Program-made: the position numbers and the translations under genes
Notes under the pieces: generated by a model
Told to the model about the DNA's origin: nothing
Database searches by the model: none
The model's input: only the letters and a program-made list of their open reading frames with translations
From: a virus
Strand: one strand, 5' to 3'
Length of the DNA: 45,137 bases
IMG/VR virus record: IMGVR_UViG_3300009506_000061
Location: 1-45,137 of that record
Part shown: positions 7,444-33,445 of the stretch, one piece after another
How positions within the stretch are numbered: position 1 is the first letter of the stretch
Layout: each line of letters starts with the position of its first letter

Positions 7444-8301
7444 TCATTTGATCCGGAACTGCCGGATCTGTTTCTCCTGCACCATGTAGCCCTTGCGGGT
7501 GAACGACTTCCACGTCGCAAGGATGTTGCCCTCGTGGGCGAGCGCCTCTGCGTCCTTCATGTACTTCTTCAGCGCGATCTCGTAGCCTTCCTTCTCAGCG
7601 GTCAGCACCGCGATGTCGGCGTTGCACTTGCGGATCTTGTTGATCCACTCGATCTCGTCGATCTTCGCCTCGACCACCTTGCCGGTGATGTTCTCCGGGT
7701 AGGCGATCGTCAGATCCTTGGCCGTCACCGGCTCCGGCGGGACGCGGGCGACTACATGGCGCTCCCACCACTCGGTCAGAGCGGCAAGTATGTCGCGCTC
7801 GGCGTCGAGATCGCGGCGCACCTTGTAGATTTCCAGCCGTTGCCCGGCGAACAGCACGGGGCAGTGCCATGCAGGTGTACCGGCACAGGCCATTTCAACG
7901 ATCGCCTGCGCGGTGTAGTAGAGCGGCACCTCGCCAGCCTCGGGATCGCCCCAGTCGGTATCGTTGCGGGCGCACTTCGCGTTCACGGCTGCGATGGTTT
8001 CCTTCGATGCAGGGTCGAATGCGAGGCCATCAACCGTGGCCCAGAACAGCCCGTGCCCAATCTTGAACCGCTCTTGCCGCGACCCCACCGCGTACCCGGT
8101 CATCTTCTCGTACTCGCCGAGGATCACGCCCTCCAGCTGCTGGCCCCAGTACATCGGGCTGTTGGGCACCGCGTCGTGAAAGCCTTGCGGCTCGTCGGCG
8201 GTCTTGTACTGGTACACCTCCAGCGGCGACTGAAACTTCGACCACCCGAGGATGGCCGCAGCCTCGCTCGATCCGATGCCCTGCCTGCGATCGTGTTCCA
8301 T
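7444..8301 (-). CDS. YqaJ-type (lambda exonuclease fold) phage nuclease, possible altered active site
   Basis: The 285-residue protein resembles YqaJ viral recombinases, the exonucleases that resect double-stranded ends and pair with RecT. Visible features: GIGSSEAA (residues 8-15), WGQQLEGVI with E57, and ATVDGL with D91. The segment that normally reads E-x-K reads VNAKCA (N107-A-K109), followed by the usual WGDP...EVPLYYTAQAIVEM. An Asn at the ExK glutamate is unusual, so the nuclease may be altered in metal use or activity. The C-terminal ~90 residues are helical. TGATG overlap with the upstream gene. Confidence 0.85.
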   Translation of the reverse strand: MEHDRRQGIGSSEAAAILGWSKFQSPLEVYQYKTADEPQGFHDAVPNSPMYWGQQLEGVILGEYEKMTGYAVGSRQERFKIGHGLFWATVDGLAFDPASKETIAAVNAKCARNDTDWGDPEAGEVPLYYTAQAIVEMACAGTPAWHCPVLFAGQRLEIYKVRRDLDAERDILAALTEWWERHVVARVPPEPVTAKDLTIAYPENITGKVVEAKIDEIEWINKIRKCNADIAVLTAEKEGYEIALKKYMKDAEALAHEGNILATWKSFTRKGYMVQEKQIRQFRIK

Positions 8302-10579: not shown

Positions 10580-11055
10580 GCGCGGACCCGGTGCATGAGC
10601 AGTTCCTTGAAGGCGTGAAAGCGAGCCATCCGAAGGTCGAGTTCTTCGCTGATTGGTTACGACGCAAGGGCTGGCAGGTTCAGGTGATGCCGCAGCGTCT
10701 CGCTCCGACAAGGGCGCAGTGGCGCGAGTTCAGCGACAACGGCGATCTGCGCGTCTGGAAGCCCGGAGGTGATGCGGAGCGGTGGGAGGTGAAGCACCGG
10801 TCGCTTGAGTTCACGTGCGAGCGAGACTTCCCGTTCCGCACGGTCATGGTCTGCACAGTGTTCTCATTCGACAATGCGGATCCGAAGCCAACCGAGTACA
10901 TCATGTTGTCGGCTGGCCTGACCCACGGCCTGCTGATCAACGCGAAGACAAAGCACCTGTGGACGCAGCAGGATCGATCCGATCGCCGGTTCCCCGGCGA
11001 GATCCAGCGGTGCTATTACTGTCCGAAATCAGCGGCCCGATTTTTCAAGCTGTGA
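10576..11055 (+). CDS. PD-(D/E)XK nuclease-like hypothetical protein
   Basis: 159 residues. D57 (NGDLRVW) followed by E71-V-K73 (RWEVKHR) gives the D...ExK signature of PD-(D/E)XK nucleases, flanked by hydrophobic strands. A C-terminal CYYC pair could stabilise the fold or bind zinc. It lies directly upstream of a cytosine methyltransferase (GTGA overlap), a place where a nuclease or repair enzyme would make sense. Assigned by motif only. Confidence 0.5.
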   Translation: MSADPVHEQFLEGVKASHPKVEFFADWLRRKGWQVQVMPQRLAPTRAQWREFSDNGDLRVWKPGGDAERWEVKHRSLEFTCERDFPFRTVMVCTVFSFDNADPKPTEYIMLSAGLTHGLLINAKTKHLWTQQDRSDRRFPGEIQRCYYCPKSAARFFKL

Positions 11056-12182
11056 AGTACCTGAGCGTATGCAGCGGCATCGAGGCCGCGTCGGTGGCGT
11101 GGACCAGGTGGTCGCCGATCGCGTTCGCCGAGATCGAAAAGTTTCCGAGCGCGGTGCTCGCGCATCATTATCCGAACGTCCCGAACTGGGGAGACATCAA
11201 TGACTACCGCAGCTGGCCCGAAGCAACTCCCGATGTTCTCGTCGGAGGAACTCCCTGCCAGAGTTTCAGCGTCGCGGGACTCCGAAGAGGTCTGGCTGAC
11301 CCTCGTGGCAACCTCACGCTCGACTATCTTGGCATTGCTGACCGCTATCGGCCCCGGTGGGTGGTTTGGGAAAACGTCCCCGGAATTCTGTCTGAGGACA
11401 ATGGACGGACGTTTGGAACCTTCCTCGGCGGGCTGGCAGAACTCGGGTATGGGTTCGCCTACAGAGTTCTTGACGCTCAATACTTCAGATTGGCCCAACG
11501 ACGCAAGCGTGTGTTCGTTGTCGGACATCTTGGAAACTGGCGACGTGCCGCAGCGGTTCTACTTGAGCGCCAATGCCTGCGCGGGGATCCTGCGCCGAGC
11601 AGAGAAGAGGGGCCGAGTATTGCCACCGGCACTCTATCGCGTGCTGTTGGCCGTGTCGGAGGCGGCGACGATCCCGGAGCGAACAAAGGCACCGCGCTGA
11701 TCGTCACGGGGCCGGACGAGTCAGAGATCTCGCACGCCGTGAGCGCTCGTGATGCGAAGGGGCCGGACTCACTGCTCGCGCAGGCGACGCTCATCGCATT
11801 CGATACCACGCAGATCACGAGCGACGAGAACCGGTGCAACCCGCAGCCCGGAGATCCATCGCACCCGCTCGCACGTACTGGGCATCCGCCTGCGGTGGCG
11901 TTCGCCGAGCTCGCCGATCAGGTCGCAGCGAATCAAGCACGCACGTACACGCGCGAGGGCACGCACAACTTCAGAATGTCGAACGTGGCGATGCACGGCG
12001 CGGCGGTGCGCAGGCTGACGCCGCTGGAATGCGAGCGCCTGCAGGGCTTCCCGGACAATTACACGATGATCACGAAGAAGACGAAGGACACACCACGCTA
12101 CAAGGCACTCGGAAATTCGATGGCGGTGCCTGTGATGCGGTGGATCGGACAACGCATCGACCTGGTGGAGGGAATCGAATGA
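11052..12182 (+). CDS. C5-cytosine DNA methyltransferase
   Basis: The GTG at 11052 overlaps the upstream stop and gives 376 residues. The ordered motifs of DNA (cytosine-5) methyltransferases are present: motif I KYLSVCSGIEAAS, motif IV GGTPCQSFS with catalytic C69, motif VI ENV (107-109), motif VIII QRRKR (149-153), motif IX RRLTPLECERLQGFPDNYT and motif X ALGNSMAVPVM. It transfers a methyl group from SAM to cytosine, probably to shield phage DNA from host restriction. The target-recognition region (about 165-310) overlaps in part with a second gene in the +1 frame. Confidence 0.93.
   Translation: MKYLSVCSGIEAASVAWTRWSPIAFAEIEKFPSAVLAHHYPNVPNWGDINDYRSWPEATPDVLVGGTPCQSFSVAGLRRGLADPRGNLTLDYLGIADRYRPRWVVWENVPGILSEDNGRTFGTFLGGLAELGYGFAYRVLDAQYFRLAQRRKRVFVVGHLGNWRRAAAVLLERQCLRGDPAPSREEGPSIATGTLSRAVGRVGGGDDPGANKGTALIVTGPDESEISHAVSARDAKGPDSLLAQATLIAFDTTQITSDENRCNPQPGDPSHPLARTGHPPAVAFAELADQVAANQARTYTREGTHNFRMSNVAMHGAAVRRLTPLECERLQGFPDNYTMITKKTKDTPRYKALGNSMAVPVMRWIGQRIDLVEGIE
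11200..11700 (+). CDS. Overlapping gene nested in the methyltransferase gene (+1 frame)
   Basis: The 166-residue frame lies wholly inside the methyltransferase gene. GGGGAG at 11188-11193, six bases before ATG 11200, is a good ribosome-binding site. The protein looks natural rather than shadow-like. Its C-terminal part (LETGDVPQRFYLSANACAG, then ILRRAEKRGRVLPPALYR) resembles a motif I associate with phage hypothetical proteins encoded near or within cytosine methyltransferase genes. The function is unknown. Dual coding is inferred from the ribosome site, length, composition and remembered family similarity. Confidence 0.65.
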   Translation: MTTAAGPKQLPMFSSEELPARVSASRDSEEVWLTLVATSRSTILALLTAIGPGGWFGKTSPEFCLRTMDGRLEPSSAGWQNSGMGSPTEFLTLNTSDWPNDASVCSLSDILETGDVPQRFYLSANACAGILRRAEKRGRVLPPALYRVLLAVSEAATIPERTKAPR

Positions 12183-21572: not shown

Positions 21573-23876
21573 GTGGCCTTCACCATAACCCAGAGGCACG
21601 TCGGCGACACAGCAGCCGAGAATCCCAAGGCGGAGGACAAGGATGCGCCGTGGCTCAAGCTCGCCCGTGATGCCTACACTGCGTCGACCGACTATTACAC
21701 GGCCAATCTGCAGAAGCAGGTCGACGACGCCATCCGGGCGTTCGACTCCCGGCACCCTCAGGACAGCAAGTACTACTCCGAGGCGTACAAGTACCGCAGC
21801 AAGACGTTTCGCCCGAAACCTCGCACGATGGTGCGACGTCACGAGTCTGCCGTGGACGCCGCTCTTTTCTCAGGTGAAGAGCTACTCGACGCCAAGGCTT
21901 TCGACCAGGGCGACGCGATTGCTGCGCTCGGTGCACGGGTTGGCAAGGCGCTCGTCACCTACCGGCTCAAGCACTCGATCCCGTGGTATCTGATCGCGCT
22001 CGGCGCATTTCAGGACGCGGCGAAGAGTGGCGTCTGCATCAGCTACAACTACTGGGAATACTCGTACGAGGACGAGACGGTCGAGCAGCTCGTGCAGGCG
22101 CAAGACCCTGACACGGGCGAATCCCTCGAGGTAAAGCGCGAAGAGACGCAGCGCCGCGTCAAGCAGGATCACTTCTGCATCGAACTGATGCCGGTTGATC
22201 AAGTGCGGTTCAGCCCGGCTGCGAAGTGGTACGATGTGATCGGCACGTCGCCGTACGTGATCCGCATCGTGCCGATGTACCTGTGCGACGTCGAGGAGCG
22301 GATGGACGATCCACCGCCGAACTCGCCGAAGTGGCGCAAGTACACGCGCAACGAGATTCTCAAGGCTGGCGTCGACAACGACTCGGCGACACAGCGGCAG
22401 GCCCGCAACGAGAAGAAGCAGGACCCATACACCGAGCACGTCGAGGACGAGAACGACTTCACCATCGTGTTCCTGCGCGAGTATTTCGTGAAGCGCAAGG
22501 GCAAGAAGATGGTGTACTGGACGATCGGCGACGAGCTCATGCTCTCCGATCCCGAGCCGCTCGGCGACGTTTACCTGCACGGCGAGATCCCGATCACGAT
22601 GGGGATCTGCGCGATCGAGACACACCGGGTGGTGCCGAAAGGACTCACGGGCATGTCAATGCCGATAACCCGTGAGTCCAACGAGGTCGCGAACCAGCGT
22701 CTCGACAACGTCAAGCTCGTGCTGAACAAGCAGTACCTGACCCGCTCGGGCGCGAACATCGACACGTCGAACCTGCGCAACAACATCCCCGGTGCAACGA
22801 CTGCGGTCGGCAACGTCGAGGCCGACGTGAAGGTGCTCGAGTTCACCGACGTCACCGGCTCAAGCTTCCAAGAGCAGGACAGGCTCAACGCCGAGTTCGA
22901 CGAACTCACCGGCTCGTTCTCCGCATCCTCGATCAACAGCAACCGCAACCTGAACGAGACGGTAGGCGGGCTGCAGCTGCTCAATGCCGGGGCCTCGGCG
23001 ATCACTGAGTACACGGTCAAGACGTGGGTGCAGACGTGGGTTATCCCGACGCTGAACCAGTGCCTGCTGCTGGAGAAGGAATACGAGACGGATCAGGAGG
23101 TGATCACGGCTGCGCTCAACGCCGCGGGCCTCGGGGCGCTCATGCAGCAGCAGCAACTGACCCTCGATCAGCTGCTCGGGACGAAGATGTACGCGACGAT
23201 CAACGTGGGTCAGGCCGCGACCGATCCGAACCTGCGCCTGATGCGGTTCACGACCGGCATGAACATGCTGACCGCGATGACGCAGAAGCCGCTGCCCGGC
23301 GCGAACATTCAGGAGATCTCGACCGAGCTATTCAGCATCCTCGGATACGCTGACGGTCGCCGGTTCTTCAGCGCACAGGACTTCCAGAAGCAGGTGCTGG
23401 ACAACGCGCAGCAGCTGGCCCAGAAGATCGTGCAGGAAGCAGAGCAGAACGCGCAGACCATGTTCAAGGCCGCGAGCGATGCCGTCGAGCACGCGATGTC
23501 CAAGCGCACGCAGGCCCAGAACGAGCAGATGCAGCTACTGCGTGAGGAGATGGCGCTCCTGCAGCGGGCTGTGGCGCAGGCGATCCGCGAACTCGCATTC
23601 GAACGCGATCACATTGGTGCCGCTCCACCTGGTTTGACCACGACGCTCAAGTCACAGACCGACAGCCAGCACAAGGGGCACGTCAACGCAGCACCGGGAG
23701 CCGAACCACGCCTGAGCGAACTGCAGGCCGCTGCGGAGGAACTGCAGCGCAAGGCCGCAGCCCTCGACCCGCTTGGCCGCGAGGCCGACGTGGCCGCGGT
23801 GGTGCAGAACGCGCAGGACATCGCGAGCCAGATCGATGCCGCGATGAAGAACCTCGGAGCAACGACCAATGGCTGA
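21573..23876 (+). CDS. Portal protein (podovirus type)
   Basis: 767 residues from GTG 21573. The portal forms the DNA-passage ring at one head vertex. The size, the region after the terminase, and blocks such as YKYRSKTFRPKPRTMVRRHE, LIALGAFQDAAKSGVCISYN and GLTGMSMPITRESNEVANQR fit P22-like or N4-like portals. The C-terminal ~150 residues are a long helical barrel-like stretch rich in Gln and Ala (QQLAQKIVQEAEQNAQTMFK). The start codon is the only uncertain point, since the next ATG would remove conserved sequence. Confidence 0.85.
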   Translation: MAFTITQRHVGDTAAENPKAEDKDAPWLKLARDAYTASTDYYTANLQKQVDDAIRAFDSRHPQDSKYYSEAYKYRSKTFRPKPRTMVRRHESAVDAALFSGEELLDAKAFDQGDAIAALGARVGKALVTYRLKHSIPWYLIALGAFQDAAKSGVCISYNYWEYSYEDETVEQLVQAQDPDTGESLEVKREETQRRVKQDHFCIELMPVDQVRFSPAAKWYDVIGTSPYVIRIVPMYLCDVEERMDDPPPNSPKWRKYTRNEILKAGVDNDSATQRQARNEKKQDPYTEHVEDENDFTIVFLREYFVKRKGKKMVYWTIGDELMLSDPEPLGDVYLHGEIPITMGICAIETHRVVPKGLTGMSMPITRESNEVANQRLDNVKLVLNKQYLTRSGANIDTSNLRNNIPGATTAVGNVEADVKVLEFTDVTGSSFQEQDRLNAEFDELTGSFSASSINSNRNLNETVGGLQLLNAGASAITEYTVKTWVQTWVIPTLNQCLLLEKEYETDQEVITAALNAAGLGALMQQQQLTLDQLLGTKMYATINVGQAATDPNLRLMRFTTGMNMLTAMTQKPLPGANIQEISTELFSILGYADGRRFFSAQDFQKQVLDNAQQLAQKIVQEAEQNAQTMFKAASDAVEHAMSKRTQAQNEQMQLLREEMALLQRAVAQAIRELAFERDHIGAAPPGLTTTLKSQTDSQHKGHVNAAPGAEPRLSELQAAAEELQRKAAALDPLGREADVAAVVQNAQDIASQIDAAMKNLGATTNG

Positions 23877-25364: not shown

Positions 25365-26363
25365 ATGGCAGGTCAACTGTGGAGCGTCAACTCGCTCGGG
25401 GGCTTTCTCTATGCCCTGAACTTGAGCGATGAACTCCGCGATTCGGTTCAACCGATGACCAAGTTCCGTCAACTGTGCGACGTGAAAGATGCGTCGATGC
25501 AGGGGATGCACAAGGGTCAGTCTTTCACGTGGGACGTCGTGTCCAACGTGCAGACGCGCGGACGGACGATGCAAGAAACCAACACCATGCCGGAAACCAA
25601 CTTCACGATCATTCAGGGCACCCTGACGATCACTGAGGCTGGCAATTCGGTTCCCTACTCGGGCAAGCTCGAGGCGCTCGCGAAGCAGAGCGTGCGGCGT
25701 CCGGTGATGAAGGCACTGCGCAACGACGCAGCGAAGGTCTTCGACATCTTGGCGCACGCGCAATTCAACGCGACGCTGCTGCGGTACACCCCGAACGGCT
25801 CGGCCACGAGCGGCACCTATGTGCTCGTGACGACCGGGACGGCGACTACCACCAGCACCCGCGTCTGGGACGTCGGCGACAGCCGAGCGATGGCGGACGT
25901 GATGAAGGAGCGGAACATCCCCGCTTACGTCGCGGACGACTACTACGCAATCGCGTGGCCCACCACGCTGCGCAGCCTGAAGAACTATCTTGAGACGCTG
26001 TTCCAGTACACGGAGCGCGGCATCGGGATGGTGATGAACGGCGAGCGCGGTCGGTACGAGAACACCCGCTACATCGAGCAGACCAACATCCCGAAAGGCG
26101 GTGCGGTCGATACGACCACGTGGGATCCGTACACCGACACGGCGGATGCGTGGGACACCGCTGGCGACTGGATTTTCTTCTGCGGTGAAGACACGGTGGC
26201 GGAAGCCATCAACACCCCGGAAGAGATCCGAGCCAAGATCCCCACCGACTACGGTCGGAGCAAGGGGGTTGCGTGGTACTACCTCGGCGGCTTCGGCATC
26301 GTTCACTACTCGACTACCGATCCCGCGCAGGTGCGCGTGCTCAAGGTCGATTCGGCATCGTAA
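25365..26363 (+). CDS. Major capsid protein (N4-gp56-like)
   Basis: 332 residues (MAGQLWSVNSLGGFLYALNL). GTLTITEAGNSVPYSGKLEA, followed by helical VRRPVMKALRNDAAKVFDIL and ending GVAWYYLGGFGIVHYSTTD, matches the HK97-fold capsids of the N4-gp56 type as I recall them. An AAGGAG ribosome-binding site stands 8 bases upstream. Terminator-like hairpins follow it. Confidence 0.8.
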   Translation: MAGQLWSVNSLGGFLYALNLSDELRDSVQPMTKFRQLCDVKDASMQGMHKGQSFTWDVVSNVQTRGRTMQETNTMPETNFTIIQGTLTITEAGNSVPYSGKLEALAKQSVRRPVMKALRNDAAKVFDILAHAQFNATLLRYTPNGSATSGTYVLVTTGTATTTSTRVWDVGDSRAMADVMKERNIPAYVADDYYAIAWPTTLRSLKNYLETLFQYTERGIGMVMNGERGRYENTRYIEQTNIPKGGAVDTTTWDPYTDTADAWDTAGDWIFFCGEDTVAEAINTPEEIRAKIPTDYGRSKGVAWYYLGGFGIVHYSTTDPAQVRVLKVDSAS

Positions 26364-26490: not shown

Positions 26491-26898
26491 ATGGCATCAA
26501 TCAGCAATCGTTACGATCACCCGAACTACACGCAGATTCGGCAGGAGTACAAGCAGCACTCTGTCAGCGCGACGGGGAAACTCGCCGGGCTGGCGTTCCG
26601 GACTCGTGTAGCGGCGGTGGTGACCGGCATCACTGCGGTGCTGGCGTCGATCGCAACGACAGGCTCGCTCATCCTCACGCTGCTCATCAACGGCAGCGTG
26701 GCGGCGATCCTGACGTTGTCGAACTCGGCGAACGAGGTGGCACGTGCATTCACGCTCACCGTGAACCGCACGCTCACCGGCATCACTGACCGAATCGAGA
26801 TCGGCACTCCGACTCACACGACCGGCAAGGTCGGCGTGGTCTACGAGTACCGAATCGTGCCGGGATCGACCTACTCGCTATTCGGCTCGCTCGGCTAA
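26491..26898 (+). CDS. Capsid-associated or decoration-type protein
   Basis: 135 residues (MASISNRYDHPNYTQIRQEY). After a polar start, the rest is rich in Thr, Val, Ile and Ala (VVTGITAVLASIATTGSLIL, VARAFTLTVNRTLTGITDRI), more like beta-rich head protein than membrane segments. It lies alone between two terminators after the capsid gene, as a decoration or head-fibre protein would. Confidence 0.55.
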   Translation: MASISNRYDHPNYTQIRQEYKQHSVSATGKLAGLAFRTRVAAVVTGITAVLASIATTGSLILTLLINGSVAAILTLSNSANEVARAFTLTVNRTLTGITDRIEIGTPTHTTGKVGVVYEYRIVPGSTYSLFGSLG

Positions 26899-26921
26899 GG
26901 AGCTAACAGCGTGATCCACGG

Positions 26922-26955
26922 GGGGCCGGGGTGACTCGGCCCCTCTTTCCTATCT
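26922..26955 (+). terminator. Terminator after the decoration-type gene
   Basis: GGGGCCG (26922-26928) pairs perfectly with CGGCCCC (26937-26943), loop of 8, then TCTTTCCTATCT. A 7-bp GC stem with a T-rich tail is a fair intrinsic terminator. It separates the head genes from the enzyme cassette. Confidence 0.6.
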
Positions 26956-26964
26956 GAGGACGCA

Positions 26965-28470
26965 ATGAGCGCAGTAGCAGCTGAGATCGCACGACCCACC
27001 ACTCCCGAGGCGCTCGAGAAGTGGTACGCGAAGCACGGCATCACGCCCGACTCCGAGGGCTGGATAGACGACCTTCCATACGGGCCGTCTCCGGTCGAGA
27101 AGGACGAGATCGTCGAGCACGTGCGTGTGAACGCTGCGCGTCACGAGGTCCGGAATCTGACCGGTCATAAGTACATCGCAGAGACGTTCGTCTTCGTCTG
27201 CGGTGGCCCATCGGTCGCCGATCACCTCGACGAGATCAAGCAGAAGAGTCTCGACCCGAACTATCACGTGTACACGTCCAACGCGACGTGCCGCTACCTG
27301 CTGTCCAAGGGCATCGTGCCGATGTTTCAGGTGATCATCGACCCGAAACCTTCGAAGGTGCACGATCTGAAGTACGACGCGCCGGCGGGCAAGCCGACGC
27401 TGCTCCTCGGGCTGCAGTGCCATCCTGATCTGTTCGACGCCGCGGCGAAGACCGGGCGTCCCACGTTCAAGTTCCTCGCGGCCTCGGCCACCGATCGCAC
27501 GCCGTCGGACATCGAGGTCGCCCGCGCGGCCCTGACCGAGCAGGATCCCGAACTGATCGGCATCGGCGGCGGATCGATGATGGGCACCCGCGCCCTCTTC
27601 CTCGCCGAGTCGCTCGGGTATCGCAAGGTCGAGTTCTACGGCCTAGACGGCTCGATCACGGTCAAGGACGGTAACGTCGTCAACTACTACTCGTACAACA
27701 AGCCGCGCGGCGAGAGCGTGCTCGAGTGCGTCATGGCAGACGGGCGCAAGTTCAACTCGACGATGGCCTTTGCCCGGCAGTCGCACGAGATCGTCGCGCT
27801 GCTCGACAAGCTACCCGGCATGGACATGCTCTTCCACGGCGAAGGGATGATCCAGCATCAAGTCGGGCTGTGGGCGCAGGCCAATCCGCACTACAGGATC
27901 CGCATCACGCCGGAGTACGCCGCGCAGATGGCGCAGATGCACGACGTGAAGAAAACCTTCGGGCGCTCCGGCCACGCGCACGCCGCGCGTGTGTTCGTCG
28001 GAGCCGCGCAGCTGCTGAAGCGCAACGGCTCGTGCCGCGTGCTCGACTATGGCTGCGGCAAGGAAACGCTCAAGTACGCGCTGGAGCAGAGTTTCCCGGA
28101 CATCGGCATGGAGGTCGTGGGCTACGACCCCGGAATCCCCGGCCTCGATCAGGAGCCGGAGAAGGCCGACATGGTGGTGTGCGGAGACGTGATGGAGCAC
28201 GTCGAGCGCCCGTGCGTGAGCGCCGTGATCGATCATATCGCCGAGCTCACGAAGCACGTGGCGATCTTCGTGGTGAGCCTCGTGCCTGCCCAGAAGGTTC
28301 TGCCGGACGGGCGGAACGCGCATATCACGCTGGAACATCCCGACTGGTGGCGCTCGCACCTGAAGCGCCGCTTCGTGATCGTCGAGGATTACAACGCGGG
28401 CCACGAGGTCACCTTCGTGGGGATCCCGATCGAAAGGTGGCAATCAATCAACGAGCCGGAGGACAAATGA
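26965..28470 (+). CDS. MptE/DUF115-like plus SAM methyltransferase fusion
   Basis: 501 residues with two domains. The N-terminal one (about 65-290) resembles the DUF115/MptE-like family: FVFVCGGPSVADHLDEIK (75-92), then HVYTSNATCRYLLSKGIVP, IGIGGGSMMGTRALFLAESL and YRKVEFYGLDGS. That family occurs with flagellin or surface-sugar modification and in pterin synthesis. The C-terminal domain is a class I methyltransferase with motif I VLDYGCGKETL (359-369), VVGYDPG (384-390) and VVCGDVMEHVE (404-414). The substrate is unknown, probably a sugar or glycan. A terminator precedes it and two coupled genes follow. Confidence 0.75.
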   Translation: MSAVAAEIARPTTPEALEKWYAKHGITPDSEGWIDDLPYGPSPVEKDEIVEHVRVNAARHEVRNLTGHKYIAETFVFVCGGPSVADHLDEIKQKSLDPNYHVYTSNATCRYLLSKGIVPMFQVIIDPKPSKVHDLKYDAPAGKPTLLLGLQCHPDLFDAAAKTGRPTFKFLAASATDRTPSDIEVARAALTEQDPELIGIGGGSMMGTRALFLAESLGYRKVEFYGLDGSITVKDGNVVNYYSYNKPRGESVLECVMADGRKFNSTMAFARQSHEIVALLDKLPGMDMLFHGEGMIQHQVGLWAQANPHYRIRITPEYAAQMAQMHDVKKTFGRSGHAHAARVFVGAAQLLKRNGSCRVLDYGCGKETLKYALEQSFPDIGMEVVGYDPGIPGLDQEPEKADMVVCGDVMEHVERPCVSAVIDHIAELTKHVAIFVVSLVPAQKVLPDGRNAHITLEHPDWWRSHLKRRFVIVEDYNAGHEVTFVGIPIERWQSINEPEDK

Positions 28471-28748
28471 CCGAGCAACAAGTACCGATCGCAGAAACCG
28501 AAGACAGGCTGCAGGATGTCACGCCGCCCGAGATCCCGAACCAAGAGGCGCTGCTCGCCGAGGTGGAGGAACTCGCTGCGAAGATGCGTGATCTGATCGT
28601 CCGCGCCAAGCCGCTCAAGCTCCTCGACGTGGGCACTACGCGCCAGCCGCATCTTGAGTCGAAGCGGTCGCTCGGCCTCGCGCAGGATTATCTGCAGACG
28701 GGGTTCCTGTGGCTGCGCCGTGCAATCCAACGCCCGCAGGTGTTCTGA
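28467..28748 (+). CDS. Small hairpin protein, possible Acb2/Tad1-type domain
   Basis: 93 residues (MTEQQVPIAETEDRLQDVTP). The N-terminus is acidic. It ends KRSLGLAQDYLQTGFLWLRR then AIQRPQVF, which can be aligned with the end of the 20826 Acb2-like protein (KRWVAIGKTHLQQGLMALTR then AIAKPEFF). A nucleotide-sponge role is therefore possible but uncertain. It is coupled to both enzyme genes (ATGA before, TGATG after), so a role in that cassette is an alternative. Confidence 0.6.
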   Translation: MTEQQVPIAETEDRLQDVTPPEIPNQEALLAEVEELAAKMRDLIVRAKPLKLLDVGTTRQPHLESKRSLGLAQDYLQTGFLWLRRAIQRPQVF

Positions 28749-30340
28749 TGTCGTGGGATATTGAAACGTCGTGCGGCGAAGAGAACGCCAAGATCATGTG
28801 GGAGATCGTGCCCTACACGCGCGGTCTGGTGCTCGATGTCGGCTGCGGCCCGCACAAGACCTTCCCGCACTTCATCGGCATCGACAACCGGAAGGACACC
28901 GCGCTCTTCGGCGTGCAGATGGATCCGGATCTGACGATCCCGGATGCCACCGAGCTACGCCTGATCGCGAGCCGGTCTGTGGACGCCGTCTTCTCCTCGC
29001 ACCTGCTCGAGCACATTACCGATTACAAGAAGGCGCTCAGGGAGTGGTGGCGCGTGATCAAGCCGGGAGGGCACCTCGTGCTCTATCTGCCGCACGCTGA
29101 TCTGTATCCGCGCATCGGGACGAAAGGCGCGAATCCGGATCATAAGCACGACTTCATGCCGCACGACATCGAGCACGCGATGGCAGAGATCGCGAAGGAT
29201 TCGAACGGCTACGACAAGCTGCGCGACGAGAACCGCAACGAGACGAACGAATACTCGTTCTTTCAGGTGTACCGGAAGCGGGAAGACAAGCAGTGCATCG
29301 GCAAAGTTCCGCCCGCCCGCAAGACCGCATGGGTGGTGCGCTACGGCGCATTCGGCGATGCGATCCAGACCGCACCGGTCTTCGCGGCGCTCAAGCGTCA
29401 GGGCTACTACGTGAAGGCGAACGTGAGCACGATGGCGCACGAGGCGCTGCTGCACGACCCGAACATCGACGAGTTCATCGTACAGGACCGCGACCAGGTG
29501 CCGAATCACTGGCTCGACTTCTACTTCGAATACCTGTCGAAGCACAACGACAAGTTCATTAACCTATCTGCAGTGGTGGAGCAGAACCTGCTCGCGACGA
29601 TCGATCGTCCGCACTTCCGGTGGACGAAGGAAGCGCGGCACGCGCTGTGCAATCACAACTATGTCGAGATGATGGGCAAGGTCGCGGGTGTGCCGATCCG
29701 CGCGGTCGACCAGAGATTCTGGCCGTCTCTGGAGGAAGCGAACTGGGCGCACCAGCAGCTGGACAAGATCACCGGCACCGGGAAGCTCGTGATGATCTCG
29801 ATGTCAGGCTCTGCGGTCCACAAGGCGTGGCCTCACATGGACACGCTCATCGGACGGATCCTGCTGGAGTTCCCGAAGTGGCAAATCGCGCTCGTGGGCG
29901 GCGAGTACGACCAGATCCTTGAGACTGGGTGGGAGAAAGAACCGCGGGTATGGAAGCTGGCCGGGCGGATCTCGATCAGGCAGGCGATGGCGCTGGCGCA
30001 GGTTGCAGCGGTGGCGATAGGGGCAGAGACTGGAACCATGAACTCTGTCGCCATGAACGAGAAGGTCGCCAAGATCCTGTTCCTGTCGCACTCGACGATC
30101 GAGAACTTGCCGCGCGACTGGCTGAACACGTGCGCGATGGTGCCGCCCAAGGGCGTGCACTGCTATCCGTGCCACATGCTGCACACTGGCTTCAATTCGT
30201 GCTGGCGCGATGAAGTCACGGGGGTTGCAATGTGTCAGGCAGCGATCGATCCTGACGACGTATGGCAGGCTTTTCTAGTCGCCACCGGGCGACAACGGAG
30301 GGAGCATGGACAACCTGAGAAGCTACTTCTCGCAGGCTGA
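28748..30340 (+). CDS. SAM methyltransferase plus GT9 (heptosyltransferase-like) fusion
   Basis: 530 residues. The N-terminal domain (1-180) is a Methyltransf_11-type enzyme: LVLDVGCGPHKTFP (27-40), then AVFSSHLLEHITDYKKALRE and VIKPGGHLVLYLPHAD. The C-terminal domain (about 193-500) looks like glycosyltransferase family 9, the ADP-heptose:LPS heptosyltransferases: VVRYGAFGDAIQTAPVFAAL, later MSGSAVHKAWP and IGAETGTMNSVAMNEKVAKI. Together it could add and methylate a sugar on LPS or on a virion protein. The fusion with the 26965 gene as neighbour implies a sugar-modification pathway. Confidence 0.8.
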   Translation: MSWDIETSCGEENAKIMWEIVPYTRGLVLDVGCGPHKTFPHFIGIDNRKDTALFGVQMDPDLTIPDATELRLIASRSVDAVFSSHLLEHITDYKKALREWWRVIKPGGHLVLYLPHADLYPRIGTKGANPDHKHDFMPHDIEHAMAEIAKDSNGYDKLRDENRNETNEYSFFQVYRKREDKQCIGKVPPARKTAWVVRYGAFGDAIQTAPVFAALKRQGYYVKANVSTMAHEALLHDPNIDEFIVQDRDQVPNHWLDFYFEYLSKHNDKFINLSAVVEQNLLATIDRPHFRWTKEARHALCNHNYVEMMGKVAGVPIRAVDQRFWPSLEEANWAHQQLDKITGTGKLVMISMSGSAVHKAWPHMDTLIGRILLEFPKWQIALVGGEYDQILETGWEKEPRVWKLAGRISIRQAMALAQVAAVAIGAETGTMNSVAMNEKVAKILFLSHSTIENLPRDWLNTCAMVPPKGVHCYPCHMLHTGFNSCWRDEVTGVAMCQAAIDPDDVWQAFLVATGRQRREHGQPEKLLLAG

Positions 30341-30902: not shown

Positions 30903-32465
30903 GTGGACCCGCTCGAGCAGCTGCTGGCGTCTCAGGGTGTGCGCTCCGGCATCGGTGGTGTCATTGACGCCATCAAGCAGATGTACGGCCAGCACGCCGC
31001 TGTCACGCCGAGTAGCCTCGACCAGGCCGTGCTCGCGGCACAAGGGCCTCGTGCGCCCACGCCGTCGGAGCTTGAGTCGGCGAACGCGATGCGCAATTCC
31101 GTCTTCGGCGAGCAGTGGGCCGCGGAGGATCCGCGCAACGCGAACGCGATGTCGGCGATAGAGCGCATGGCCCAGATGCAGGAGACTGCTGACCCTGCGA
31201 ACTGGCTCGGCGCTGGCGTGATCGGGAAAGCAGGACGCGCAGCGAAGACCGCTGACTCGATGCTCGATCGCATGGCGAAGCCTGAACTCAGGCCAGAGGA
31301 TCAACTCTTCGGCGGTGGCCCGCAGAGTCTTCTCCCTGAAGGTCTGCAGCGCAAATTGCGCACCGAATACCCGGAGGTCGATCCCGCCGGGCAGTGGCTG
31401 GTGGACAAGACGTCGGGCAAGAAATATCTCGGCAAGAAACCCACTGCCGAAGCGGAACTCGTAGCAGAGGCTCGCAAGAAGGCGCAGGCGGCAATCGATC
31501 GCGGGGAATACACGCCCTACTTCGATGTGAGCAAACGCGAGTACGTCGACCCTTCGCTGTATGACTTCCCGGTCGAGACACGCACGCAAGCTCTGCCGAA
31601 GAAGGAAGCGACGATCCAGAAGTACCGCGAGATGGCCGACACTCCGGAGACTCGCGCTCGTCTGGAGACTGCATACGCACGCGGTGCCGAGGATCCCGGC
31701 GCATTCCGCTGGTACGCGATGAAGCAGTTGTTCGATAAGTATGTCGAGCACCTCGGCCCAGAAGAGGGGGCGCGGGCGTTCAAGGAACGCTTTGCTGACG
31801 CGATGGCCGCGACAACCGGCGGAGCGGCTCCGCAGGAAAACTGGCTGATGGCCCACTACGCGAACACGCGACGCGCACAGGGACTTGGACTCCCGCCGAC
31901 GCATCAGCTTCCGTTCCCGATCGGCGGACGATACGCAGCCGGGAACCTCGATATGTACAACAAGATCATCAACGAGGGTCGAGGCCTCGGACTCGACGCG
32001 CCGAAGCGGTACAACTTCTCCGGCAATTTCCTCGGCAACGTCAAGCCGGGCACGATCGATGAGCAGATGATGGGCCTGTTCGATGAAACCGGGAAACTAA
32101 AGGCCCCGCCCGGAGACTCCTACGGCGCATACGAGGACGTGGTGGCGCAACTTGGCGAGAAACGCGGCATCCCGACTGCAGAGTTTCAGGACGTAGCGTG
32201 GGCTGGAGCTAAATCGCTGAAGGAGGAAGCCAAGGCGGCGGCAAAGGGCAAGCCCTACAAGCGAGAGGCTGCGAAGCCGATGATTCAGAACATCAACGAG
32301 ATCCTCGCACGCACATCGATGATAACCGGCGAGACGCAGGAGCAGGTGCTCCGGCGCATGATCGAGGCCAAGGGTCCGCTGTTCAATATCGGCGCGGGCG
32401 CTGTTGCTACTGGTGGGGCGGCGCTATCGTTGCGTGATTACTTCGGATCCGAAGGGGACATCTAA
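30903..32465 (+). CDS. Large virion-region protein with a polyvalent-type domain
   Basis: 520 residues from GTG 30903, directly after the previous stop. Residues about 300-440 (NWLMAHYANTRRAQGLGLPP, NMYNKI-type helix, KRYNFSGNFLGNVKPGTIDE, then PTAEFQDVAWAGAKSLKEEA) resemble DUF7178-like domains seen in large phage polyvalent or injected proteins, as far as I recall. A Gly/Ala hydrophobic end (NIGAGAVATGGAALSLRDYF) closes it. Internal virion or injected protein inferred. Confidence 0.55.
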   Translation: MDPLEQLLASQGVRSGIGGVIDAIKQMYGQHAAVTPSSLDQAVLAAQGPRAPTPSELESANAMRNSVFGEQWAAEDPRNANAMSAIERMAQMQETADPANWLGAGVIGKAGRAAKTADSMLDRMAKPELRPEDQLFGGGPQSLLPEGLQRKLRTEYPEVDPAGQWLVDKTSGKKYLGKKPTAEAELVAEARKKAQAAIDRGEYTPYFDVSKREYVDPSLYDFPVETRTQALPKKEATIQKYREMADTPETRARLETAYARGAEDPGAFRWYAMKQLFDKYVEHLGPEEGARAFKERFADAMAATTGGAAPQENWLMAHYANTRRAQGLGLPPTHQLPFPIGGRYAAGNLDMYNKIINEGRGLGLDAPKRYNFSGNFLGNVKPGTIDEQMMGLFDETGKLKAPPGDSYGAYEDVVAQLGEKRGIPTAEFQDVAWAGAKSLKEEAKAAAKGKPYKREAAKPMIQNINEILARTSMITGETQEQVLRRMIEAKGPLFNIGAGAVATGGAALSLRDYFGSEGDI

Positions 32466-33445
32466 TGGCACAGTCCGGATCTTTCGATTACATCGTCACG
32501 GCAAACGACGTGATGACCGACGCGCTGGAGAACATCCAAGTGCTCGAGGCTGGCGAATCTATTGCGGCGGATGATTCGACCGTCGCGCTTCGCACGCTCA
32601 ACCTGCTCGTGAAGCAGTGGTCGTCGCTCGGCGACCAGATGCCCGGCATGAAAGTGTGGCTGCGCAAAGAGGTGTTCCTCTTCCCGCAGAAGAGCCAGTA
32701 CAAGTACACGCTCGGCCCGTCGGCGCAGACCTCAGATCATGCGACAGAGAGCTATGTGCGCGACACGCTGAACGGTGCGCTGGCTGCAAGCGCGACCGCT
32801 GTCACGGTGGACGACGGCACCAGCACAACGAATGGCGACGTGATCGGCATTGTTCTCTCAGATGGCACAGTCCACTGGAGCACGATCTCCTCGGGCGGCG
32901 GCACGAGCTCGTTGGTGATCGCAACTGGCGTCGCGAGCGCCGCAGCGGACGGGGCTTATGTCTACACGTACACCACGCCGCTAGCGTTCAAGCCTCTTGA
33001 AGTGCTTCATGCATCGCTGCGCGACCCGAACAACATCGACCGGCTATCGCTCGTGATCCCGCGCGACATCGACATCTACAACGCGATCGCCGACAAGACT
33101 CAGGTCGGCCTGCCGGGAATGTGCTGGTATGAGCCGAAGATCCTCACGGGGATCCTGACGTTCGATCGCGCGTTCGATTCGTTCTACGACATCGTGCGGA
33201 TGCTCGTGCTCTCGCCTGCAGACGATCTGGACGCTAGCACCGATAACCTTGCGTTCCCTGCCGAAGCCTTCGCTGCGCTTGGGTGGGAACTCGGGATGCG
33301 TCTCGCGCCAAAATTCGGCAAAGCGTGGACGCAGGACATGCAGAAAGCGTACGACGTGGCGGTGGGCACGTTCCGGTACATCAACCTGCCCGGCGCTGGT
33401 CCGGGCTATAACGCTGACGACAGCGGAAACACTGACTCTCTCTGA
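32465..33445 (+). CDS. P22 gp4-like head-completion / tail-accessory protein
   Basis: 326 residues; the ATG overlaps the previous stop (TAATG). ANDVMTDALENIQVLEAGES, TLNLLVKQWSSLG and FAALGWELGMRLAPKFG match the helical gp4-type adaptor that attaches under the portal and stabilises packaged DNA. The middle section (residues ~95-165, Thr/Ser/Gly-rich) looks like an inserted beta domain. Confidence 0.78.
   Translation: MAQSGSFDYIVTANDVMTDALENIQVLEAGESIAADDSTVALRTLNLLVKQWSSLGDQMPGMKVWLRKEVFLFPQKSQYKYTLGPSAQTSDHATESYVRDTLNGALAASATAVTVDDGTSTTNGDVIGIVLSDGTVHWSTISSGGGTSSLVIATGVASAAADGAYVYTYTTPLAFKPLEVLHASLRDPNNIDRLSLVIPRDIDIYNAIADKTQVGLPGMCWYEPKILTGILTFDRAFDSFYDIVRMLVLSPADDLDASTDNLAFPAEAFAALGWELGMRLAPKFGKAWTQDMQKAYDVAVGTFRYINLPGAGPGYNADDSGNTDSL

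Follow-up and report, generated by a model that had tools for sequence, protein, structure and literature searches.

A methyltransferase-GT9 fusion gene recurs behind unrelated major capsid genes of two phage lineages and probably encodes a virion-modifying enzyme

Phage virion glycosylation is known: as summarised in PMC12363180, glycosyltransferases encoded by the mycobacteriophages Che8, Corndog and Myrna glycosylate capsid and tail-tube proteins. Here we describe what would be a new variant of it, in phages with other hosts. A gene encoding an S-adenosylmethionine (SAM) methyltransferase (MT) fused to a glycosyltransferase family 9 (GT9) domain, denoted MT-GT9, neighbours the capsid gene of two phage lineages. 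We analysed it in a 45,137-base virus record (IMGVR_UViG_3300009506_000061; the whole record is called the window), where it is the last of three overlapping genes in the head operon. MT-GT9 behaves like a head-module gene in ~200 fragments with two unrelated capsid types (124 of lineage 1, with a phrog_1357-type capsid, and 76 of lineage 2, with a phrog_617-type capsid) and is present in the genomes of named isolates, which makes the question of a virion sugar directly testable. No title or abstract on a capsid-linked GT9 was found in the open-licence literature.

In the protein heptosyltransferase TibC, according to the available portion of PMC4358343, Asp-110 is the candidate base, Lys-230 lies at the donor phosphate and iron is bound through Cys 339, 342, 358 and 370. 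Pfam searches with MT-GT9 matched Methyltransf_11 (1.4e-11) and Glyco_transf_9 (PF01075, 3.2e-5; 23.8 bits, above the cut-off of 22), giving a layout of SAM methyltransferase at about residues 1-180, GT9 domain of the heptosyltransferase fold at about residues 190-515 and a C-terminal Cys/His cluster. The AlphaFold model (predicted local distance difference test, pLDDT, 84.7) has an N-terminal methyltransferase fold (residues 4-180) and a two-lobed GT-B fold. The GT9 part of the model (residues 190-528) matched the GT9 structure 3tov with Z 24.2 (299 aligned residues, root-mean-square deviation 4.2), WaaF with Z 23.1, WaaC with Z 20.0 and TibC with Z 18.9. Like TibC and AAH (the BAHT family), MT-GT9 has a catalytic-type Asp and Lys and four C-terminal Cys; these are C472, C475, C485 and C496, spaced differently from the TibC positions given in the same excerpts. 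Unlike those enzymes it carries an N-terminal methyltransferase, has a conserved His in the Cys cluster and neighbours a capsid gene. The MT-GT9 proteins are TibC-like in plan and not BAHT family members, full membership not being adopted because the N-terminal beta-barrel is missing.

The GD, Lys and ET residues and the last three Cys of the cluster are invariant in 105 lineage 1 sequences wherever the column has a residue. GD aligned to 3tov, and the Lys and Glu aligned to the Lys and Asp of 1psw. An R.G..GD motif is present in 69/69 lineage 2 proteins. The strict Cys/His pattern C.PCH..H was found in 84/129 lineage 1 and 66/69 lineage 2 proteins, and SAM motif I in 101/112 and 67/69, respectively. 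Comparison of the window gene with its nearest relative, in locus L002, gave a nonsynonymous rate (dN) of 0.065 and a synonymous rate (dS) of 0.41, indicating that its coding capacity is not due to chance; the gene is under purifying selection.

Sequence comparison of the GT9 part with the PDB returned a GT9 protein of unstated acceptor (0.0023), lipopolysaccharide (LPS) heptosyltransferase II (0.044) and one chance-level match. The NCBIfam equivalog cut-offs for LPS heptosyltransferases I, II and III were not reached (14 bits for the window GT9 part vs 170.2 for TIGR02201; 23.1 bits for the GT9 of L007 vs 134.6 for TIGR02195), and an LPS-core equivalog identity was not adopted, the scores being far below these values. 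MT-GT9 shares its fold with WaaC and WaaF and differs from them in these scores, in the fused methyltransferase and in its place in a phage head operon. A PADLOC scan of MT-GT9 gave just a weak methyltransferase match to mad2 (2.6e-4).

A first search with the MT-GT9 gene returned 13 viral loci. From more than 540 matches per alignment scan (at least 570 with the MT-GT9 alignment and more than 560 with the lineage 1 capsid), the best 80 were retained; the loci are not all independent, and identical ones were removed by a 60-nt signature. Of the lineage 1 loci seeded by the capsid, all 30 that extend at least 7 kb past it carry same-strand MT and GT9 downstream, fused in 26; of the 49 that extend at least 3 kb, 45 carry GT9 and 44 carry both parts. 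Conversely, 79 of the 88 loci from GT9-seeded scans carry a lineage 1 capsid gene on the fragment. MT-GT9 stands behind the capsid gene even where the capsid protein is just ~50% identical to that of the window, and capsid and GT9 distances within lineage 1 correlate (r = 0.69, n = 102, 0/2000 permutations as high). After dereplication, 124 lineage 1 loci have GT9 downstream of the capsid gene. In a few of these, MT and GT9 are separate genes or GT9 occurs alone. Such arrangements, seen in a minority of relatives (L013:4470-5564, L014:7908-9002, L115, L126, L135, L161, L109), form a natural fission or fusion series. We also observed group I introns (RF00028, 54-69 bits) between two major capsid gene pieces in L044, L173 (Aromatoleum anaerobium), L193 and L194.

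A capsid of a different type precedes MT-GT9 in lineage 2. The gene just upstream in L176 and L190 encodes a major capsid protein of the phrog_617 family that includes a protease part (E 1.9e-114 and 1.4e-112), and L176 has a different portal as well as a tail terminator gene downstream. No relation between the capsid profiles of lineages 1 and 2 was detectable (hhalign probability 2.4%); both capsids may have the HK97 fold. In a scan with the lineage 2 GT9 subgroup, which leaves aside the lineage 1 loci L016 and L017 among its matches, a phrog_617-type capsid gene lies directly upstream of MT-GT9 in 76/83 loci, with a median gap of 12 nt between the stop codon of the capsid gene and the nearest preceding stop in the frame of GT9. 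In the other seven, the capsid open reading frame (ORF) overlaps the stop-to-stop GT9 ORF in two (L274 and L280, counted as elsewhere and outside the 76), two are cut off upstream and three are without a capsid gene there.

In the lineage 2 capsid-seeded scan, the best 80 loci were kept. At 51% identity or more, MT-GT9 stands behind the capsid in 28/28 loci with at least 2 kb downstream, and in all 33 that are not too short when shorter loci are counted (5/33 have less than 2 kb downstream), whereas below 51% it was found in 0/34 loci with at least 2 kb downstream. Thirteen of the 80 were classed as too short; among these, MT-GT9 or its MT can be seen to begin in L308 (48% identity) and in L288 and L292 (59-60%). 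Maximum-likelihood analysis of 72 MT-GT9 proteins gave a tree in which a branch with 100/99 support separates the 38 rows of lineage 1 from 29 phrog_617 rows and 5 others. The simplest reading would be one acquisition of MT-GT9 at the capsid gene in each capsid lineage, followed by retention.

The distribution of the gene outside these scans was also followed. With three family members as queries, tblastn found no relative of the GT9 part in 50,697 phage records; the methyltransferase part alone was matched in 2, 4 and 3 records at E limits of 1e-5, 1e-4 and 1e-3. Relatives of the lineage 1 capsid occur in 33 of these records, chiefly those of Vibrio phages and of two E. coli phages, PTXU04 (with an annotated capsid protein) and HelliStehle, at ~45-46% identity among the matches listed and one at 25%; relatives of the lineage 2 capsid include those of VP882 and phiHAP-1. 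In three phage-record regions that were inspected, short genes annotated as hypothetical come after the capsid gene. Copies of MT-GT9 are present in the isolate genomes of Paraburkholderia sp. C35, P. rhynchosiae WSM 3937 (L172) and Aromatoleum anaerobium LuFRes1 (L173), and one with a divergent MT part in Pseudothauera rhizosphaerae; the contigs of bacterial-genome copies are mostly assigned to Proteobacteria. With relatives both in viral contigs and in bacterial genomes, a recent host insertion unique to this genome, which the first-pass annotation had named as what would undo its proposal, was rejected for MT-GT9; it comes close to the truth for the two genes in front of it (see below).

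Between the capsid gene and the three-gene set lies a gene for a 135-amino-acid protein whose family is the largest small-ORF cluster between capsid and MT-GT9 (66/336). Its Ser/Thr content averages 22% in 26 relatives (one of these rows, L188 with 5%, looks misread) vs 16% for the capsid. The model (pLDDT 77.9) is predicted to be all-beta and jelly-roll-like, with weak and mixed fold matches among which C1q domains recur. On this modelling it is plausible that the protein is an exposed decoration protein and the acceptor of a sugar.

Together, these data suggest that MT-GT9 probably modifies a virion protein, either capsid or decoration, the GT9 domain glycosylating and the MT domain methylating, and so sugar-coats the particle, since the fusion follows the capsid gene in so many fragments of two unrelated types. 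This function is favoured by the capsid linkage, by the position in the head operon, by the fold common with a protein heptosyltransferase and by the sugar- and methyl-transfer genes that occupy the adjoining slot; to that extent the first-pass annotation, which had proposed virion modification for the whole set, is supported. The enzyme would be expressed late, and its GT-B fold GT9 domain would transfer a sugar from a nucleotide-activated donor, most likely ADP-heptose of the host, to Ser/Thr of a head protein, either the capsid itself or the adjoining Ser/Thr-rich candidate decoration protein. The methyltransferase domain may then add methyl caps to this sugar or to the acceptor, and the genes of the slot (MptE/DUF115-MT here; GT2, TylF, FkbM, GT4-type and sulfotransferase genes elsewhere) could lengthen or vary the glycan from one strain to the next. 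The benefit might be capsid stability, shielding or surface binding. If so, MT-GT9 would be a compact protein-heptosylating enzyme, and a sugar coating of the capsid would be a widespread trait of environmental phages, with effects on particle stability, surface adsorption and immune recognition.

Several observations weigh against this proposal. In the fold comparison TibC ranks below GT9 and WaaF/WaaC, and protein-directed and LPS-directed GT9 enzymes are inseparable by sequence alone. Operon timing could partly explain the fixed position. MT-GT9 is not directly preceded by a capsid gene in three loci (L272, L275 and L011, the last with a portal gene upstream), and no GT9 is seen in 4 of the 49 lineage 1 loci that reach at least 3 kb past the capsid; these four have 4.1 to 6.4 kb downstream, and capsid-to-GT9 gaps elsewhere reach 4.7 kb. 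The Ser/Thr richness of the candidate decoration protein is not special, as other virion genes of the window reach 16-20%, and the gap of ~12 nt in lineage 2 is too small for a decoration gene, so that the acceptor there would be the capsid or a protein encoded elsewhere. The cultured relatives inspected have the capsid without a detectable GT9, so a capsid of this type does not in itself require one. It is a tentative extension, which we doubt more than we credit, that the two unrelated capsid lineages each took up the same bifunctional methyl-/heptosyltransferase beside the capsid gene and retained it because assembly, stability or shielding of their capsids had come to depend on a covalent methyl-heptose decoration. 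Such a dependence would amount to an obligate post-translational glycosylation step in the morphogenesis of tailed-phage heads, missed so far because the phage records searched hold no such gene.

Remodelling of LPS, also raised by the first-pass annotation, is kept as the main rival and accounts for the capsid linkage less well than virion modification. MT-GT9 would then modify the LPS core late in infection, either masking the receptor against the sticking of progeny to debris or excluding other phages. GT9 is the LPS heptosyltransferase family, and the isolates with strong MT-GT9 matches (Paraburkholderia, Aromatoleum and Pseudothauera) are Gram-negative. In addition, the anti-CRISPR section of PMC10449497, in the part available, tabulates among defence-related proteins a 'Glycosyltransferase family 9' and a SAM methyltransferase from three Pseudomonas aeruginosa prophages, possibly related to MT-GT9. 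Such a role leaves the linkage to two unrelated capsids unexplained, however, and fits poorly with NCBIfam scores so far below the LPS heptosyltransferase cut-offs and with a late-operon position, from which the gene would not be expressed in lysogens; we regard it as unlikely. A further alternative is that MT-GT9 acts on phage DNA or on a nucleotide to escape restriction. Phage glycosyltransferases acting on DNA are known, a cytosine DNA methylase is encoded elsewhere in the window, and 6 of 122 ORFs in the gap between capsid and MT-GT9 weakly match phrog_2675, named for a DNA methyltransferase (best 3.5e-6). The location of MT-GT9 in the head operon and a fold that is that of LPS- or protein-acting enzymes make this very improbable.

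A different question is whether the two genes preceding MT-GT9 in the window share its function. The first-pass annotation had described three genes with MptE-like plus methyltransferase, small hairpin and methyltransferase plus GT9 domains. All three ORFs are open, their junctions overlap and the domains were matched by Pfam, in gene 1 MptE-like (PF01973, 6.8e-15; 55.7 bits, above the cut-off of 34.6) and Methyltransf_23 (8.3e-8). Its further claim of a functional three-gene cassette was rejected. Pattern scans of viral contigs found one full-length close relative of gene 1, in L002 and about 46-47% identical; a single-sequence scan of viral contigs with gene 1 found no relative, and a two-row alignment found L002 again and nothing else. 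With tblastn against the phage records, gene 1 matched 21 records in its methyltransferase part only, none over 80%, and L012 has a distant MptE-domain match upstream of the capsid gene. Gene 2 had no match among the loci in hand, L002 included, one weak tblastn hit and none in a phmmer search of the PDB. Among the loci in hand, capsid followed by MT-GT9 recurs and the full set of three does not.

Genes 1 and 2 could thus be passengers unrelated to MT-GT9, gene 2 being a sponge for cyclic oligonucleotides of the Acb2/Tad1 type and gene 1 a recent swap with no tied role, a possibility that we hold at slightly less than even. Gene 2 resembles the hairpin of the Acb2/Tad1 anti-CBASS/anti-Thoeris sponges (PF24729, 2.7e-5; 24.7 bits, just below the Pfam cut-off of 27), for which reason it is probably a separate counter-defence gene; it also matches the C-terminus of phrog_717 (7.6e-5), and in L002 an FkbM methyltransferase protein occupies its place. 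Protein identity between the window and L002 is 96% for portal and capsid and 90% for MT-GT9 vs 53% for the 135-amino-acid protein and 47% for gene 1. On the other hand, sugar and methyl genes are frequent in the slot, and MptE-like proteins (PF01973) include the Maf flagellin glycosyltransferases, so gene 1 may well act on the same glycan. Gene 1 differs from Maf/MptE in its fusion to a methyltransferase, and its match to the Maf structure 5mu5 is weak (E 0.7 over ~54 residues).

The contents of the slot in other loci are varied. Raw Pfam counts for the 122 gap ORFs of at least 150 amino acids gave 14 TylF-type methyltransferases, 8 GT2 and 6 HNH endonucleases, with 1-2 each of GT4-type, FkbM, sulfotransferase and MptE-like proteins. 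The gap genes come from a greedy longest-ORF rule, which includes spurious ORFs and missed gene 2 of the window, and four methyltransferase matches (L115, L126, L135 and L161) probably represent the MT of the family itself, encoded apart from GT9. Judged from these domain assignments, gene 1 appears to be one of several kinds of swapped accessory gene. We also noticed small proteins in the lineage 1 gap. A 57-member cluster (LDK..PYG...YEQDG...; e.g. L021:1211-1438 and L030:7729-8001), several members of which lie just 5' of MT-GT9, gave no Pfam match with the one representative scanned. A 47-member cluster of short proteins (L073:5273-5686, L085:1195-1635, L100:9729-10085 and others) has the motif LPPGMDI.NQ in several members and two neighbouring members in some loci. 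Pfam scans of 69 of the 92 representatives of small-gap-ORF clusters gave one LAGLIDADG match and nothing else. Polysaccharide-lyase or tailspike-like proteins lie between capsid and MT-GT9 in L142:5137-6441 (K1-lyase C-terminal domain) and L126:7548-9209 (pectate-lyase-like).

The features of the structural module are listed below. On the + strand, the portal gene is followed by a gene in the scaffold position, the capsid gene, the gene of the 135-amino-acid protein, a hairpin and the three-gene set.

Features of the structural module in the window
Feature	Coordinates	Strand	Evidence
Portal gene, SU10-type	21573-23876	+	Pfam
Major capsid protein, phrog_1357 type; probable modification target or anchor	25365..26363	+	phrog_1357 major head protein, 3.2e-13
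Candidate head decoration protein, 135 amino acids, 23% Ser/Thr	26491..26898	+	Cluster size, Ser/Thr content, model
Intrinsic-terminator-like hairpin with T-rich tail	26920..26945	+	-24.5 kcal/mol
Gene 1, MptE/DUF115-like domain and SAM methyltransferase fusion, 501 amino acids	26965..28470	+	Pfam
Gene 2, Acb2/Tad1-hairpin-like protein, 93 amino acids, probable anti-defence passenger	28467..28748	+	PF24729, phrog_717
Gene 3, MT-GT9, 530 amino acids from ATG	28748..30340	+	Pfam, AlphaFold model, fold matches, invariant residues
Head-tail adaptor-like structural gene	32465..33445	+	phrog_12985, 1.3e-15 (unknown function); phrog_637 adaptor, 0.0018

The overlaps at the junctions, ATGA between genes 1 and 2 (28467-28470) and TGATG between genes 2 and 3 (28746-28750), make translational coupling of the three genes plausible. 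A longer MT-GT9 from a GTG at 28709 is possible, and its 3' end overlaps the next gene (start 30306) by 35 nt. The hairpin upstream of gene 1 had been taken for a terminator that bounds the cassette. It is present with its T-rich tail, and the boundary role was rejected, since terminator-like sites recur 3' of the decoration-size gene in 26/90 loci vs 0/90 single-base shuffles (one shuffle per locus); the hairpin more likely closes the capsid/decoration unit. Relatives of the adaptor-like gene lie 3' of MT-GT9 in L002-L008 and L012. Outside the structural module, the window encodes a C5 cytosine DNA methylase (5.9e-53; 10815-12182, + strand) and a YqaJ-type recombinase (8.6e-20; 7444-8301, - strand).

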